From positions 1 through 64,000 of the forward strand of contig JACKLW010000012.1 in the NCBI GenBank assembly GCA_024235715.1: a stretch of DNA of 64,000 nucleotides. Reading direction: 5' to 3'. The notes beneath the pieces are model-generated. The model had not been told where the DNA came from. It worked only from the letters and a program-made list of their open reading frames with translations, and made no database searches. Position numbers and translations under genes: made by a program. Below are positions 99-7,116 of the stretch, in pieces (positions within the stretch are counted from its first letter, which is position 1; each line of letters opens with the position of its first letter). This DNA comes from Accumulibacter sp. Lineage in GTDB: Bacteria; Pseudomonadota; Gammaproteobacteria; Burkholderiales; Rhodocyclaceae.

Positions 99-192
99 CG
101 CTCTGGCCGAGAACTTGCCATTGAGCACTCGCCTGGAACGGCAGCTCTACTTTGTTACCTGCCATTCAGCAGGGGGCTGGATGAAGGTCCGC
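99..192. repeat. 94-bp dispersed direct repeat, copy 1
   Basis: This stretch matches 5744-5837 without gaps, 85 of 94 bases identical, in the same orientation. Weaker similarity continues about 9 bases further (to 201 and 5846) and then stops. The left boundary is sharp. Its right end lies about 30 bases outside the left inverted repeat of the RIT element. Neither copy shows a convincing gene. Bases 1-98 hold nothing I can recognise. Confidence 0.8.
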
Positions 193-221
193 TCTGGGTC
201 GCTATGTAGAGGTGTACATAG

Positions 222-249
222 CGACCCCTATGCACAGTTTGAAACTATG
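222..249. repeat. RIT left terminal inverted repeat
   Basis: The 28 bases are the exact reverse complement of 3668-3695. The repeat contains the 11-bp dyad AGTTTGAAACT, and its inner end runs into the perfect palindrome CTATGCATAG at 245-254. Further CTATG-type half-sites lie at 202-207, 216-221 and 302-309. Such arrays resemble arm or core sites for tyrosine recombinases. The binding role is inferred. Confidence 0.85.
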
Positions 250-309
250 CATAGGTCTGTCGATATTTCCAGCGCTGGCAGGCGTTGCGACCGGCGCCGG
301 TGCACATAG

Positions 310-1323
310 TTACAGCGTCTGAAGGAACCGCATCAACGAATCCGGCGCCTTGAATCGACGCAAGGTGGTATCGGGTGCGTCCAACCGTGCGAGCGCTTTT
401 TCCTTCATTGCGAGGTCGGCTTCAACGTAACGATGAGTCGTCGTCGGGCTCTCGTGCCCGAGCCACAGCGCGATCACGTTGAACGGGACGCCCGATTGCA
501 GCAGGTGCATTGCTGTCGTGTGGCGCAGCACGTGCGGCGAAACCCGCTTGTTGAGGATACCCGGCACTTGAGTGGCCGCCCGAGTCACGGCAAGCTCAAG
601 GCGCTGAACGACATTGGATCGCGTCATTGACTGTCCATCGCGGTTTGGCAGCAAGGCTGCCGCGCCACGCAAGCCCGAATTCAGTCGAAGCCAGGCACGA
701 ACCTCGGCGACCGTGGTGTGCCAGAGCGGAACGGATCGCTGCTTGCGTCCCTTGCCGTGCAGTTGAACGCAAGCGCCACCGTCGAGAACGACGTCCGCAA
801 CCTGGACGCCGATGATCTCCGAGACCCGCGCACCGGTGTTGTAGAGCAGAGCCAAGAGCAAGTGATCGCGCTGCGAGGTCCAGGTATCGCCGGGCTGCCC
901 CAAGACCGCCAGCATTTCCTCGCGCGTGAGGTATCCGAGCATGGGGCGCTCAAAGCGCTTCATCGGCACCGCCAGAGCGCGTTCGACCACGTGCAGGGAG
1001 GCGACATCGCGCCGACCGGCGAATTTCAGAAACGCCCGCAGTGCCGTGAGTCGAAGATTCCGGCTACGCACCGCGTTATGTCGCTCGTGCTCCAGATGGT
1101 CGAGAAACGCCAAGATGAGTTCAGGCTGGATGTCATTGAGTTTCAGGCTCGTCGGCGCCTTCTTCAACCGCTGACTGGAGAAGTCTAGGAACAACATCAG
1201 CGCGTCGCGATAGCAGGCTACTGTACGTGGGCTGACGGCGCGTTGCGCGACCAAATACTCAGTGAAGAACTGTTGAACCAGCGACGCGAAGGAAGGTGGT
1301 TTCGGCGCGATCGTTTTACGCAT
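310..1323 (-). CDS. ritC: tyrosine recombinase, third gene of RIT trio (RitC-like)
   Basis: A 337-residue integrase of the phage-integrase fold, presumed to act with its two neighbours in moving the RIT element. The N-terminal SAM-like DNA-binding domain covers about residues 15-110 and the catalytic domain the rest. All catalytic positions are visible: Arg in YNTGARVSEI, Lys in HGKGRKQR, His-x-x-Arg in SPHVLRHT, His in WLGHES and the tyrosine in THRYVEAD. The ATG overlaps the stop of the upstream recombinase by 8 bp (ATGCGTAA), so translation is probably coupled. The stop lies about 60 bp from the left inverted repeat. The family assignment is firm; the label RitC rests on gene order. Confidence 0.9.
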   Translation of the reverse strand: MRKTIAPKPPSFASLVQQFFTEYLVAQRAVSPRTVACYRDALMLFLDFSSQRLKKAPTSLKLNDIQPELILAFLDHLEHERHNAVRSRNLRLTALRAFLKFAGRRDVASLHVVERALAVPMKRFERPMLGYLTREEMLAVLGQPGDTWTSQRDHLLLALLYNTGARVSEIIGVQVADVVLDGGACVQLHGKGRKQRSVPLWHTTVAEVRAWLRLNSGLRGAAALLPNRDGQSMTRSNVVQRLELAVTRAATQVPGILNKRVSPHVLRHTTAMHLLQSGVPFNVIALWLGHESPTTTHRYVEADLAMKEKALARLDAPDTTLRRFKAPDSLMRFLQTL

Positions 1324-2290
1324 CGGGCACCTCCGGCTGATCCAGGTAGGACTCGAAGCGCCGTCCGGCCAGTGCCATCAATTCCGGCACGGCCGAGAGA
1401 TACCAGTAAGTATTGGTCACCATCGCGTGGCCGACATACGTCGATAGCGACAGCATCGCCTGATCGACATCGGCCCCCTGCGATTGCCACAGCAGGATGC
1501 GGCGCACGACGAATGTGTGGCGCAGGTCGTGGATACGAGGGGCATGATGCGCCCCCCGGTTGCGCCAGCCCAGTTGCTCACGCAATGCGATGAAGACGCG
1601 ATGGACCTGGCGGCTATCCAGCGGTAGGCCACGTCGTCGCCCGCGCGTGCCGATGAAGAGCGGCGCATCCTCCTGTGCAAAGTCGCCAGCGAGATCGCGG
1701 ATCCATCGATACCGGCGTAGCGCTTCTACTGCGCTGGGGTGCAGTGGAACCTGGCGCGACTTCCCGAACTTGGTTTGATGGATGGAAAGCATCCCGTACT
1801 TCAGATCGACGTCGTCGTTGCGTAGCCCCAGTGCTTCAGAAATCCGCATGCCGGTACTGGCGATCAGACCGAACAGCGTTTCATAAACGGCGCCGCGTAG
1901 ACCGGGCGCCGGTCCAAGCCGCCGGGCGGCAGCCAACAGGTCGATAATTTCCTGATCGCTGTAAATATGAGGAGACAGCCGCTCGGGGAGGCGCCCGAAG
2001 ACAGAATCATCAGGGACCTCGGTGCGTGGCTCAAACTGCTGCAACCAGCGCAGGAAAGTGCGCAGTTTCTTGAGTCGGCGAGCCCAGGTGAGCGGGTCGT
2101 CGCTGCCGTGACTGTCGCACCGCGCCCAGTTGGCCATGACTTCGATCGTCAGCGATCCACGATGACCGATGGCCTGAACATACTTTGCGAAACTGCGTAA
2201 CGGATACTTCTCGGAGCGGCCGGAGAAGCCAAGCCGACGTCGCTCGACCAAATATTGCTCGACCCGAGCCTGCAGCGAGACCGAGGTCAT
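1316..2290 (-). CDS. ritB: tyrosine recombinase, second gene of RIT trio (RitB-like)
   Basis: A 324-residue tyrosine recombinase. The catalytic set is complete: Arg in STGMRISEAL, Lys in QTKFGKSRQV, His-x-x-Arg in IHDLRHTF, His in YVGHAM and Tyr in NTYWYLSA. I placed the start at the ATG at 2290 because GGGGAG sits 6 bases upstream and because this ATG overlaps the TGA of the first recombinase as ATGA. A longer form from 2308 is possible but lacks that arrangement. It differs clearly in sequence from its two neighbours, as expected for RIT genes, which belong to three separate integrase subfamilies rather than being recent duplicates. Confidence 0.9.
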   Translation of the reverse strand: MTSVSLQARVEQYLVERRRLGFSGRSEKYPLRSFAKYVQAIGHRGSLTIEVMANWARCDSHGSDDPLTWARRLKKLRTFLRWLQQFEPRTEVPDDSVFGRLPERLSPHIYSDQEIIDLLAAARRLGPAPGLRGAVYETLFGLIASTGMRISEALGLRNDDVDLKYGMLSIHQTKFGKSRQVPLHPSAVEALRRYRWIRDLAGDFAQEDAPLFIGTRGRRRGLPLDSRQVHRVFIALREQLGWRNRGAHHAPRIHDLRHTFVVRRILLWQSQGADVDQAMLSLSTYVGHAMVTNTYWYLSAVPELMALAGRRFESYLDQPEVPDA

Positions 2291-3540
2291 GACGCACTCC
2301 CCGGCCACGGCAGGGCAACCTCGATGAGCTTGCGACTGTCGAGTTTGGCGTAAATCATGGCGGTGTTCAGCGAGCGGTGGCGGAGCACGTCAGCCACTTC
2401 CTTGAGGGACGCACCTCCGGCCAGCAGCCGGTTGGCCATGGTATGGCGCAGCAGGTGCGAGCGCGTATAGGGCAGTCCAGCGCGAGCGAAGGCCTGGCGA
2501 ATCGTTTTGCGTACGAGGTCGGGGCCAACAGGCACATCCCGCGGAGCCACGTGCCGCACGAAGACCGCCCGGTTGGCGGTCTTGGGGCGTTCATGTTGCA
2601 GGTACGCCGCAATCGCCTTGCCGGTCGCCACCGGCAGTGGCAGTACGTCCTCGCGACGACCCTTGGTTTGACGAAGCGTGATCGTGCCCGCGCGCCAGTT
2701 GATGTCGTCGAGGCCGATGCGAGCAACCTCACCGCTACGAAGCCCGAGATCAAGCGCACAGCGCACAATCGCATCAGCACGCCGCATGGACCGACCGGGT
2801 TGGCCGAGTGCCCCGATCAGTTGCTCAACTTCTTCTGCGGTCAGTGTCTTGGGGAGCGAGGACAGTTGCCAGTTGGCAGGATAGGACAGCGCGCCGATCA
2901 ACCCGTGCACCGCGTCGCCAAGAGAAGCGCGATAGCGGAAATATCCGCGCAGTGCCGCGACCACCGATCCGGCATTCGCCGGCTTGCTGTACAGCTTGGC
3001 CTGGTGCGCGAAGAATCGGCGAACCTGGTCGGGCCTGACAGTGTTGATGGCGACGGGGCCGTCGCGAAAGCGTGAGGTCAACAGCCGCCCAATGATCCGC
3101 AGGGCGATACTTCGGGTCTTGGGCGCCAGACCTCGCACATGATCCATGTGCTCGTCGTAGCGCAGCAGCTCCTCAGCCACCGGCGTCGTCTTTGCCTTTG
3201 GCGGCGCAACGATACCGGAAGCACGAAGGACCATCAGAAGATGGCCGAGTGCGGCGCTCAGGTTGCGACGATCACGATGGGTTGGGCCGGTGCAGCGGCA
3301 TCGCGGAAGATGGCTATCAAGGAATTCGGAAACAACGGATTCGTCGATGCGTCGCAAGCATCGACACCGACGGTGCATCCATTGCGCGAAATGGGCAATG
3401 CCGCGTAGGCAGTTTTTGAACGTGGAGGCAGCGTAGCCGCGGTCAGTCAGGTACTGCTTGTAGGCATCAACGTAGGGCGCCAACGGCCCCTTTGCGAGCC
3501 AGTCGATTCGGTCGGATCGAGATGTTCGTTCGTTTGCCAT
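2287..3540 (-). CDS. ritA: tyrosine recombinase, first gene of RIT trio (RitA-like)
   Basis: A 417-residue recombinase, the first gene of the trio. The N-terminal core-binding domain spans roughly residues 15-190 and includes a cysteine/histidine-rich patch (MHRRCRCLRR and LPRCRCTGPTH). The catalytic domain shows Arg in DLGLRSGEV, Lys in RQTKGRRED, His-x-x-Arg in SHLLRHTM, His in VLRHRS and Tyr in AMIYAKLD. The start at 3540 follows AAGGAG with proper spacing; an in-frame GTG at 3567 is the alternative. The leader contains two small hairpins, one with the ribosome binding site in its loop. Translation is coupled to ritB through an ATGA overlap. Confidence 0.9.
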   Translation of the reverse strand: MANERTSRSDRIDWLAKGPLAPYVDAYKQYLTDRGYAASTFKNCLRGIAHFAQWMHRRCRCLRRIDESVVSEFLDSHLPRCRCTGPTHRDRRNLSAALGHLLMVLRASGIVAPPKAKTTPVAEELLRYDEHMDHVRGLAPKTRSIALRIIGRLLTSRFRDGPVAINTVRPDQVRRFFAHQAKLYSKPANAGSVVAALRGYFRYRASLGDAVHGLIGALSYPANWQLSSLPKTLTAEEVEQLIGALGQPGRSMRRADAIVRCALDLGLRSGEVARIGLDDINWRAGTITLRQTKGRREDVLPLPVATGKAIAAYLQHERPKTANRAVFVRHVAPRDVPVGPDLVRKTIRQAFARAGLPYTRSHLLRHTMANRLLAGGASLKEVADVLRHRSLNTAMIYAKLDSRKLIEVALPWPGSAS

Positions 3541-3581
3541 GATGGTCTCCTTGTGTGGGACCATCACTGCACCTTGCAGTG
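3541..3581 (-). promoter_or_regulatory. double hairpin in the ritA leader
   Basis: Two perfect inverted repeats lie directly before the ritA start: GATGGTC/GACCATC (3541-3547 and 3559-3565) and CACTGC/GCAGTG (3565-3570 and 3576-3581). In the mRNA the AAGGAG ribosome binding site falls in the loop and stem edge of the first hairpin, immediately before the ATG. This could limit translation of the recombinases. That role is inferred from structure alone. Confidence 0.45.
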
Positions 3582-3667
3582 AAAACTATGTCGAGACCTA
3601 CATCACCCCGCGTCGCCAAATCCACTGCCGCTACGGCGCCTCAGTGATTCTCGTCGCACCAACTGCA

Positions 3668-3695
3668 CATAGTTTCAAACTGTGCATAGGGGTCG
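3668..3695. repeat. RIT right terminal inverted repeat
   Basis: Exact reverse complement of 222-249. It lies 128 bp upstream of the ritA start, so the ritA promoter must lie inside the element. It overlaps an imperfect 23-bp palindrome (3664-3686) that begins TGCAC and ends GTGCA around AGTTTCAAACT. The 168 bases between this repeat and the next gene hold nothing recognisable. Confidence 0.85.
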
Positions 3696-3863
3696 TTAGC
3701 ACCAATTGGCGAGCGAGAAAAGCGGCCATTGCGATGGCAACTGATCGTAGGGCAAACGTGGTCTGTTCCCGGTTGCCCTCGCTCATCAGCACGATCCGAG
3801 TCCGCCTGCAGGGCATCGAAGTAGTCGCACGCGCTTGCGAGACGCCCGAATTCAGCGCGGCGA

Positions 3864-5738: not shown

Positions 5739-5743
5739 CCATC

Positions 5744-5837
5744 CGCTTTGGCCGAGAACTTGCCAGTGAGCAGTCGGCTGGACCGGCAGTTCTACTGTGT
5801 TACCTGCCATTCAGCAGGCGGCTGGCTGAAGGTCCGC
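5744..5837. repeat. 94-bp dispersed direct repeat, copy 2
   Basis: Second copy of the repeat at 99-192, 9 mismatches and no gaps. This copy can form AGAACTTGCC paired with GGCAGTTCT, and TTCAGC paired with GCTGAA, pairings weaker in copy 1. It begins six bases after the TetR stop codon. Confidence 0.8.
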
Positions 5838-6369
5838 ATTGGTTCGGATACACCCATTGACGATTTGGGAACGCAGCCGCTGGACTGTGATGCAGAAGTA
5901 ATTCGAGCAACCGTGCTCCGTCCCCGGTAACCACCCTGCAGCCAGCCAGCCTGCTGCAGTGGACGGCATGGGAAGCTGACAAAGTGGCACTGATCCGTCA
6001 GATTCTGACCGCCAACGGTCTTTTCTATCGCCGGAACGTGCGCTGGCATGTGACCAAGGATGCATTTGCGCAAGATCTCCCGCGCCGCCTGAGTGTCGAA
6101 ATATCTTACACACCACTTGCCCGGTGGGTGGCAAAACGAAGTCGAAAGCCGGCAAGTGATTGATTGAAAACACCCGCCATTTCAATGGCGTGATCTATGC
6201 TTCACTCCGTTGCACGGCCGAATGACGCCGTCCGACGAGCATGGGAGCGGTGTCTGCTCCCTGGCGGAGGGTGTGCTCGTCCTGACCGGAACGGCGTGCC
6301 TGGCCGCTGCCGTGCGCTTCAAGCCGTTGCAATATTTTTCATGCGTTGGGCATTTCAAGGAGAATCGTC
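5838..6369. other. 532-bp intergenic stretch, no gene recognised
   Basis: No convincing reading frame on either strand. It contains a CTGCAG-bounded inverted repeat (5936-5959) and a perfect small hairpin CGCCAT-TTCA-ATGGCG (6175-6190). The promoter of the downstream PEP-CTERM gene should lie in the right part, but no clear sigma-70 or sigma-54 motif was found. Confidence 0.5.
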
Positions 6370-7116
6370 ATGGGCGAGCAAGCACCTGTACGCAAATGGA
6401 GCGTGATTTCCCTTTCAGCGATGGCGCTGTCAATGCTGGCCGCTTCCGTGCAAGCGGTCAATCTGGTGAGCAATGGCAGCTTTGAGCAGAGCTCGTTCAC
6501 GCCCGCCAACTCGTCTCAGTTCACCACCCAGGTAACGGACTGGGACAATGCTGATCCATTCGGTCGCGTCTACCTTTTCTTCCCGAATACGGCGACCACC
6601 TCGGGCGCCGTATACACGGCCTCGAACCCCTTCTACACGCTCGTTCTGAACCAGGTCGGCGAACCCTCCTGTGATGGCGGAAACTTCGTCGGCATCGACA
6701 GTGATCCTACTTTTCAGACGCCGATTACGCAGATGATCGGCGGTCTGCAGGCGGGGCAGAAATACACGCTTTCGTTCTGCTGGGCGCTTTCGCAAGAGCG
6801 GAATGTGCTCGGCCCGACGACCGATCAATGGCAGGTGACCCTGGGAAGTGAAACGCAGTCAACAGCGGTCGTGGCAAATCCTTCGCAAGGCTTTACGGGC
6901 TGGTTCGCGGAATCCTTCACCTACACGCCGGCAGTGGGAGGAAACCAGTTGCTTTCGTTCCTGGCGGTGGGTTCGCCTGCGGGAATTCCGCCGTTCGCGT
7001 TGCTGGACGGTGTCCGCCTGGAGAAGGTGCTTGCCGAACCGGGATCGTACGTGCTGGTGGCGGTTGCCCTGCTCGGACTTCTCTTGGCCCACAAGCGACG
7101 GAGCGAGCGCGCCTAG
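6370..7116 (+). CDS. PEP-CTERM sorting domain protein
   Basis: A 248-residue exported protein of unknown function. It starts with a signal peptide (about 29 residues, ending ASVQA). The body begins NLVSNGSFEQ, a motif common at the start of beta-sandwich (DUF642-like or choice-of-anchor) domains. The C-terminus is a PEP-CTERM sorting signal: AEPGSY, a hydrophobic stretch, then HKRRSERA. The usual Pro before Glu is Ala here. The family signal is recognised by exosortase, with cleavage and probably surface or exopolysaccharide attachment. The start at 6370 is set by AAGGAG 7 bases upstream. No exosortase gene is in the window, so it must be encoded elsewhere. Confidence 0.8.
   Translation: MGEQAPVRKWSVISLSAMALSMLAASVQAVNLVSNGSFEQSSFTPANSSQFTTQVTDWDNADPFGRVYLFFPNTATTSGAVYTASNPFYTLVLNQVGEPSCDGGNFVGIDSDPTFQTPITQMIGGLQAGQKYTLSFCWALSQERNVLGPTTDQWQVTLGSETQSTAVVANPSQGFTGWFAESFTYTPAVGGNQLLSFLAVGSPAGIPPFALLDGVRLEKVLAEPGSYVLVAVALLGLLLAHKRRSERA

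Follow-up and report, generated by a model that had tools for sequence, protein, structure and literature searches.

We analysed a window of 64,000 nucleotides (the whole stretch under study) from the start of a 153-kb contig (JACKLW010000012.1) of Accumulibacter sp., whose 4.14-Mb assembly comprises 25 contigs and is 90.5% complete. Positions 196–3695 of the window are occupied by a complete RIT element, an ordinary intact member of the RIT elements, in which a trio of tyrosine recombinase genes (ritA, ritB and ritC) lies between inverted repeats (IRs). Comparison with related elements indicates a general plan in the order target, 6-bp core, 20-bp palindrome, inverted core, IR, ritABC, IR, core and target. 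Judging from this comparison, it is likely that the element is autonomous, that it moves by site-specific recombination at the 6-bp core and that the mobile unit consists of the palindrome together with the IR-bounded ritABC; the palindrome, which is usual in RITs, probably enables the movement. The comparison yields exact RIT boundaries, the 6-bp core and three classes of target, and its interest lies in what it says of how RITs work, not in the window copy itself.

The RIT element of the window

The space between the two IRs is filled by the rit genes, all on the minus strand, and the remaining open reading frames overlap them on another frame or strand. ritA (2287..3540) encodes 417 aa from an ATG following AAGGAG, a start chosen by eye, whereas the tyrosine recombinases encoded by ritB (1316..2290) and ritC (310..1323) have 324 and 337 aa, respectively; the three matched PF00589 with E values of 6e-28 (RitA, scanned as the slightly longer frame 2287–3549), 1e-19 and 1.5e-28, respectively. 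The gene order ritA-ritB-ritC, which is also that of related full trios, the overlaps of 4 bp between ritA and ritB (ATGA) and of 8 bp between ritB and ritC (ATGCGTAA), the PF00589 matches and the uninterrupted state of all three frames bear out an earlier note on this DNA, in which a complete RIT element with three coupled recombinases and the same start/stop overlaps had been recognised. The residues Arg, Lys, HxxR, His and Tyr, which that note had listed for all three proteins, could be read by eye in RitA, RitB and RitC, and for RitC they agreed as well with an alignment to E. coli XerD (1a0p), the closest solved relative by sequence. RitA contains a SAM-like stretch at 27–78 and a second Xer-like region from about 127; the available portion of PMC8138268 distinguishes RitA, RitB and RitC subgroups and describes two CB domains in RitA and an extra C-terminal helix in RitC.

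Alignment of the two ends revealed that the left, ritC-side IR (222..249) and the right, ritA-side IR (3668..3695) are reverse-complementary at 28/28 bases, i.e. the repeats are as perfect as had been claimed, and that the match widens to 31 nt with one mismatch (219–249/3668–3698). Two 10-bp boxes were located at 228–237 and 245–254 on the left and at 3680–3689 and 3663–3672 on the right. The right IR ends in a core GGGTCG (3690..3695) that borders target arm T2 (3696..3760). At the left end, the order in 196–227 is GGGTCG-CTATGTAGAGGTGTACATAG-CGACCC, namely 1) an outer 6-bp core GGGTCG (196..201) at the border between target arm T1 (104..195) and the palindrome, direct relative to 3690–3695, 2) the 20-bp palindrome (202..221), in which two half-sites of the IR box type CTATGnnnAG abut, with 8 of 10 pairs complementary, and 3) an inner core CGACCC (222..227), inverted relative to both outer cores. 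The left limit of the integrated unit is 196, which is 26 bp beyond the boundary given before: the limits 222..3695 of the earlier note were correct at the right end, but at the left they missed the outer core and the palindrome (196–221). The unit of 3500 bp fits the RIT size of about 3,500 bp (3490–3548 bp in 17 long relatives).

In the host genome, the ritABC block is single and the 28-bp repeat was found only at the two ends of the block (E ≤ 0.001). Strong matches to rit genes were present in 2 of 27 congeners (G001 and G015; G, C and L numbers are our handles for genomes, contigs and loci), and the trio does not keep to one locus, a point on which the earlier note had let its reading depend. 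In G001, contig C8 carries a 521-bp fragment (L029 3772–4292) that is 98.7% identical to the ritA end of the window element and lies in another context, the divergence falling inside the core. The ritA-side 33-bp core plus IR of the window element also recurs identically at a 445-bp element (L107).

The palindrome and the cores among related elements

A junction pattern (repeat plus palindrome) was found at 88 loci in genome_contigs and one in viral_contigs, giving 91 junctions at 89 loci, six of which were supplied by Methylobacter luteus; the pattern fixed CTATG at the start of each palindrome half and permitted palindromes shorter, not longer, than 20 bp. The far end, called at a match of at least 70% over 33 bp within the stretch available, was reached for 48 of the 91 junctions, and these 48 two-ended copies are partly dependent, L081 entering twice, L067 and L123 having identical flanks and L064 and L093 a common left flank. 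For a palindrome-independent sample, 300 genomes of the order were searched with RitC (E ≤ 1e-60), and nine had a match, the window included; with the RITs of G001, G015 and G035 and five plasmid copies, sampled from 115 and 157 matching records, this search provided 17 RITs with both ends resolved. Outside the 17 stand L285, in which no inverted repeat was found, the truncated L267 and the outer RIT of L033.

The 20-bp palindrome lay at the same place in all 91 pattern-found junctions and was perfect in 37. Both of its halves bear the IR's own 10-bp box, CTATGnnnAG; CTATG, fixed by the pattern, starts 182/182 halves, and A at the ninth base, left free by the pattern, is present in 181/182. 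The IR itself contains two direct 10-bp boxes 17 bp apart, whose consensus sequences, taken over 18 full elements, are CTATGcacAG and CTATGcnnAG. The position of the repeats at the boundary, a check that had been set beforehand, held in every copy with both ends found (48/48, from the 91 junctions). Within the 48 copies other than that of the window, the 33-bp core plus IR of the two ends agreed at 26 to 33 positions; because the arms are alike over this whole range, their identity in the window is no sign of recent movement, contrary to what the earlier note had taken from it, and arm identity was ruled out as a clock of such movement. The spread of these matches suggests that it is probably function that keeps the arms alike.

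Of the 17 gene-found RITs, 14 had the palindrome at a single end, 6 bp outside the repeat, whereas L264 had it at both ends and two RITs had it at neither. Accepted palindromes scored 7 to 10 of 10 pairs, at background frequencies of 0.001 to 0.11 in the same loci; that of L282 had 8/10 pairs and cores agreeing at 5/6 positions. Their sequences can be quite unlike, such as TTATGAAAAGCTTTTCATAA with core TGGCCG in L031 and TAATTCCGCATGCGGAATTA with core GAGGC in L265, and this variety suggests that the plan is common to distant RITs. The exact CTATG-type palindrome was found in 4 of 121 genomes, always adjoining an RIT-type IR. It was also noticed that a perfect palindrome of 32 bp, CGACCC-TTATGGAAAGCTTTCCATAA-GGGTCG, stands alone in G015, no element adjoining it (L159, G015:C19:13200–14400), at a locus where G011 has a short element, and that a Methylococcaceae metagenome-assembled genome carries two tandem direct copies of core plus 20-bp palindrome beside a short element (L061 4033–4140), the second copy being continued by a target-like arm.

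The side of the palindrome was assigned where a rit gene lay within 420 bp, that is, for 32 of the 91 junctions (57 had no near rit gene and two were ambiguous); the palindrome adjoined ritC in 18 of these 32 and ritA in the remaining 14. Full trios had it on the ritC side in 10 cases and on the ritA side in 11, L081, with a palindrome on both sides, being counted in both. The 14 single-sided gene-found RITs were divided into five with the palindrome on the ritC side (window, L031, L032, inner RIT of L033 and L265) and nine with it on the ritA side (L268, L279, L280, L281, L282, L283, L284, inner RIT of L030 and L266). Identity amounts to 96.6% over 3523 bp between L048 (palindrome on the ritC side) and L109 (on the ritA side) and to 91.3% between L089 and L099, yet in each pair the palindrome is at opposite ends; therefore, its side is not a property of the lineage and the palindrome is not a fixed end.

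Measured from core to core, the 48 two-ended copies fell into 31 of 363–545 bp and 17 of 3490–3548 bp, with none between. Since a piece of a rit gene is kept in some of the short ones (G073, L036, L053 and L115), these look like internal-deletion derivatives. By their sequences, the short elements are non-autonomous derivatives with the same ends, a class to watch for in annotation, and mobilisation in trans would be the simplest explanation for them.

Targets and unoccupied sites

Three insertions were located in IS66 transposase genes (L279, L280 and L281), the frames of which became whole, with 376, 374 and 342 aa, respectively, after removal of palindrome and element with one core kept. 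The junction falls at GRK/GRN codons, Pfam IS66 domains are found on both sides of or across it, and in 3/3 it is the C-terminal half that adjoins the palindrome. Insertion of RITs into radC is reported in the accessible parts of two papers, which also give as sites the transposase gene of a transposon related to Tn6049 (PMC3414803) and, in strain CH34, an IS66-family tnpA (PMC2864759). Another target is ritB of other RITs, entered at the catalytic HDxRH codons in L030, L033, L264 and L265, so that RITs are seen to land in active-site codons of other RITs. The ritB frame was restored in L265 (264 aa, one residue at the core varying with the core copy retained) and in L033 (166 aa, the outer ritB being otherwise frameshifted), and the junction of L030 was read by eye. 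In the informative ritB insertions (L030, L033 and L265) the palindrome was beside the target's C-terminal half in 3/3, and the inner element was antiparallel to the target ritB in L030 and parallel in L033 and L265. As far as can be read from the alignments, the polarity of the palindrome relative to the target gene is constant in the six informative intragenic insertions, and the restoration of frames once the palindrome is removed with the element indicates that the palindrome is not the target. The nested RITs in ritB were seen to form a second RIT clade, whose hosts are two Accumulibacter-group genomes and two plasmids (L030 5300–8750, L033 3975–7426, L264 and L265).

The flanks of the window clade fit CGAAnGnCnGCTnn-CGACCC-nnAGCnGnCnTTCG (87 palindrome-side and 45 far-side flanks), with the far-side arm weaker. 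Some of these flanks are ends of dispersed repeats, namely R1 (window 104–201), R2 (G011 and G001) and RB1 (L086). T1 is the end of R1, an Accumulibacter intergenic repeat that is broken here by the element; in G009 (L160), R1 shows 70/70 bp identity up to and including the core and then continues with a different partner. The window itself has an uninterrupted, unoccupied R1 copy (85%) with core GGTTCG at 5743..5863 on the plus strand. It is one of 18 uninterrupted repeat copies (the others being L160–L163 and L171; L164, L165, L166, L169 and L172; and L257–L263), in which 17 different sequences come after the core. With 0 to 5 of 10 pairs, none of these sequences is a palindrome, and 12 of the 18 copies match nnnnCnGnC, the opposite target arm.

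A search for the joined window flanks in 28 genomes of the genus, the host's own included, revealed a sole place matching across both, G001:C83:65–208, which aligned across the joined flanks and core at 75% (E 3.8e-20) with no element inside. Its right arm is far more alike than its left, and the G001 relative of T2 (L170) runs on through GGGTCG into a weaker T1 relative. From this alignment, we regard the place as an unoccupied site that is related to the window site but not a proven ortholog of it; an unoccupied relative of the window site, of the kind for which the earlier note had proposed to look, exists in G001 at that degree of likeness. In G011, the gene neighbouring the window site is conserved and the intergenic region is not. 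For four Methylobacter insertions (31 genomes) and L086 (121 genomes), empty-site matches covered essentially one flank and reached at most about 14 and 39 bp past the core, respectively. The full target pattern had no match in the window and 39 matches, versus 25 for the control, in 29 genomes, and the strict target half-site had 15, versus 7 for the control, in 8 genomes. Four Methylobacter-group loci (L238, L239, L240 and L242) were noticed to share a dispersed repeat of about 230–250 bp, which starts at or near the core beside a short element (L238). Elsewhere in the window, a 256-aa frame with a PEP-CTERM-like tail, as judged by eye, was located at 6346–7116, and Rfam gave no matches across the window.

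Movement, alternatives and known systems

Because the cores adjacent to the two IRs are inverted, recombination between them would merely flip the element. The palindrome would supply a core of the opposite orientation and so make the outermost cores direct, and palindrome plus element could then leave as a circle. The site on this circle, IR-core-palindrome-core-IR, would amount to two equivalent full sites placed back to back, and each of them could enter a target core, in either orientation. One Rit protein may bind the 10-bp box CTATGnnnAG beside the core and in both palindrome halves, and another may contact the unlike target arms; the circle, the excision and this division of labour among RitA, RitB and RitC are what we infer from the arrangement of the sites. 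A circle of this kind would account for either orientation relative to the palindrome, for the constant polarity of palindrome and target and for the single core left after removal, all as seen. If the mechanism is true, loss of the palindrome would stop excision while inversion would continue. In the passages available from Van Houdt et al. (2012; PMC3414803), the use of three recombinases was found hard to understand, and the part seen of a 2023 paper (PMC10214605) lists target specificity, empty site and movement of RITs as not tested.

Several observations weigh against this mechanism. All of its support is comparative and no reaction was observed; a search for the circle junction IR-core-palindrome-core-IR gave nothing in viral_contigs and, among the 91 junctions, two loose matches that are not such junctions. 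L278 and the outer RIT of L030 have no accepted palindrome, so that the palindrome is either not a universal part of RITs or one that they can lose. The palindromes of L284 and L264 are weak (7/10 pairs, background 0.11) and were accepted because their arms are IR-box-like and core-like hexamers lie on both sides, whereas L278, not accepted, also has 7/10 on its ritA side (0.083) without a box or second core; the 8/10 that L283 and L266 also reach on the opposite side (0.039 and 0.0195) come with neither box nor cores and were treated as chance. The outer cores of the inner RITs of L030 and L033 are unlike, so that a strict 6-bp duplication is not general. The IS66 insertions show one orientation only, with the RIT antiparallel in 3/3, and L264 is antiparallel with palindromes on both sides; since it is without the N-terminal target half as well, L264 provides no test of polarity. 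The unoccupied G001 site is only 75% alike and may not be the exact pre-insertion locus, and the strict target half-site is weakly enriched in Accumulibacter (41 versus 21 for the reversed control in 28 genomes).

Other explanations assign the palindrome a different role. It might belong to the host as a REP-like target site, next to which RITs insert without carrying it, and the solo palindrome of G015 does show that the design can stand alone; however, taking out the palindrome together with the element makes the IS66 and ritB frames whole again, 18/18 uninterrupted copies of the three target repeats are non-palindromic after the core, and each of the four genomes with the exact CTATG-type palindrome has it beside an RIT-type IR. 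We rejected this explanation on account of the reading frames restored without the palindrome and regard it as very improbable. Less credible still is a palindrome that forms a fixed part of one end, e.g. a transcription terminator behind ritC: although the window copy does lie downstream of ritC, and a palindromic sequence overlapping the repeat is mentioned in the seen portion of PMC3414803, the palindrome is at the ritA end in 14/32 assignable junctions and at opposite ends of 96.6%-identical elements, and a ritC terminator was rejected since the side varies. That the window copy is an immobile relic is also unlikely; it is single and no short derivative was detected in its own genome, but its three frames and both ends are intact, a near-identical fragment occurs in another context in a congener and its ritA-side core plus IR recurs at L107.

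The route of movement is less settled. Single-strand copy-out, as proposed for SE and perhaps Tn554, may take the place of a double-stranded circle, the 6-bp cores then being strand-specific fingerprints; we give this a substantial chance, though short of an even one. It would suit the 6-bp spacer, which SE and Tn554 share according to the available part of PMC10214605. Both outer cores are CGACCC in 32 of 44 core pairs; in the other 12, where this is not so, only the far core deviates in L051, L097, L108 and L116, an asymmetry expected of a strand-biased route. Against copy-out, the same variant core is found on both sides in L065, L078, L096 and L284 (the last with a different inner core, which resembles a 6-bp target duplication), only the palindrome-side core deviates in L064, L088 and L094 (possibly by decay), the two outer cores differ from each other in L084 and L111, and RITs are without the extra SE/GInt proteins. 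It is conceivable to a similar degree that the direction of entry is fixed and that the orientation is set after insertion, by in-place inversion between the inverted IR-adjacent cores, which are identical in 32/44 clade-1 core pairs, where both orientations are common. However, the IS66 insertions, with the same inner and outer cores, show a single orientation (n=3), and both orientations occur in L030 and L033 in spite of their differing cores; otherwise, later inversion gives the same static picture as entry of a circle in either orientation. A wider and rather doubtful proposal is that the 6-bp core is a general exchange point, at which short dispersed intergenic repeats (R1 and R2 of Accumulibacter and RB1 of Caballeronia relatives) would be cassette-like units with RIT-type attachment ends, shuffled by RIT recombinases from one genomic site to another along with the non-autonomous derivatives and the 20-bp palindromic adaptors.

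In comparison with described RIT elements, the window element is alike in A-B-C order, 4- and 8-bp overlaps, a size of about 3.5 kb, a 28-bp IR and a palindrome overlapping one end, and nothing contradicts its membership. The portions available of the descriptions give a trio with overlaps of 4–8 bp in about 3.5 kb (PMC3414803) and a terminal inverted repeat of 28–29 bp, or 34 bp (PMC3414803, PMC10214605), and that of PMC3414803 reports variation in end sequence and mentions a "28-9 bp inverted repeat and overlapping palindromic sequence", left unexplained. Beyond these accounts as far as seen, we add the separable 20-bp palindrome between inverted 6-bp cores, found at either end, the target classes and the non-autonomous derivatives. 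In the open-access literature covered, in part, no account was found of short RIT derivatives, of palindrome side-switching or of the core, Ricker et al. 2013 lying outside this coverage. Like SE, GInts (treated in PMC5385486) and Tn554, RITs have more than one tyrosine recombinase and target specificity, and SE and Tn554 also have a 6-bp crossover spacer (PMC10214605, PMC5385486); SE and GInt differ in having four conserved genes and Tn554 in having TnpABC, whereas RITs have three recombinases and no extra protein, and the extra non-recombinase genes of those systems (Tfp/Srap, GinC-D, TnpC) are absent from the window element. The parts seen of these two papers mention no 20-bp palindromic unit in SE, GInt or Tn554.

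RIT proteins share the domain and active-site residues of Xer recombinases (1a0p and 5dcf by sequence search). Xer sites have paired half-sites around a 6-bp centre, as do the RIT ends. Unlike Xer, RITs are not a host system of dimer resolution but mobile, with three paralogues. The short RIT elements resemble bacterial (IS-derived) miniature inverted-repeat transposable elements in having the ends of an autonomous element and no intact genes, and differ from them in that the parent is a tyrosine-recombinase element and that a palindrome lies beside the short element.

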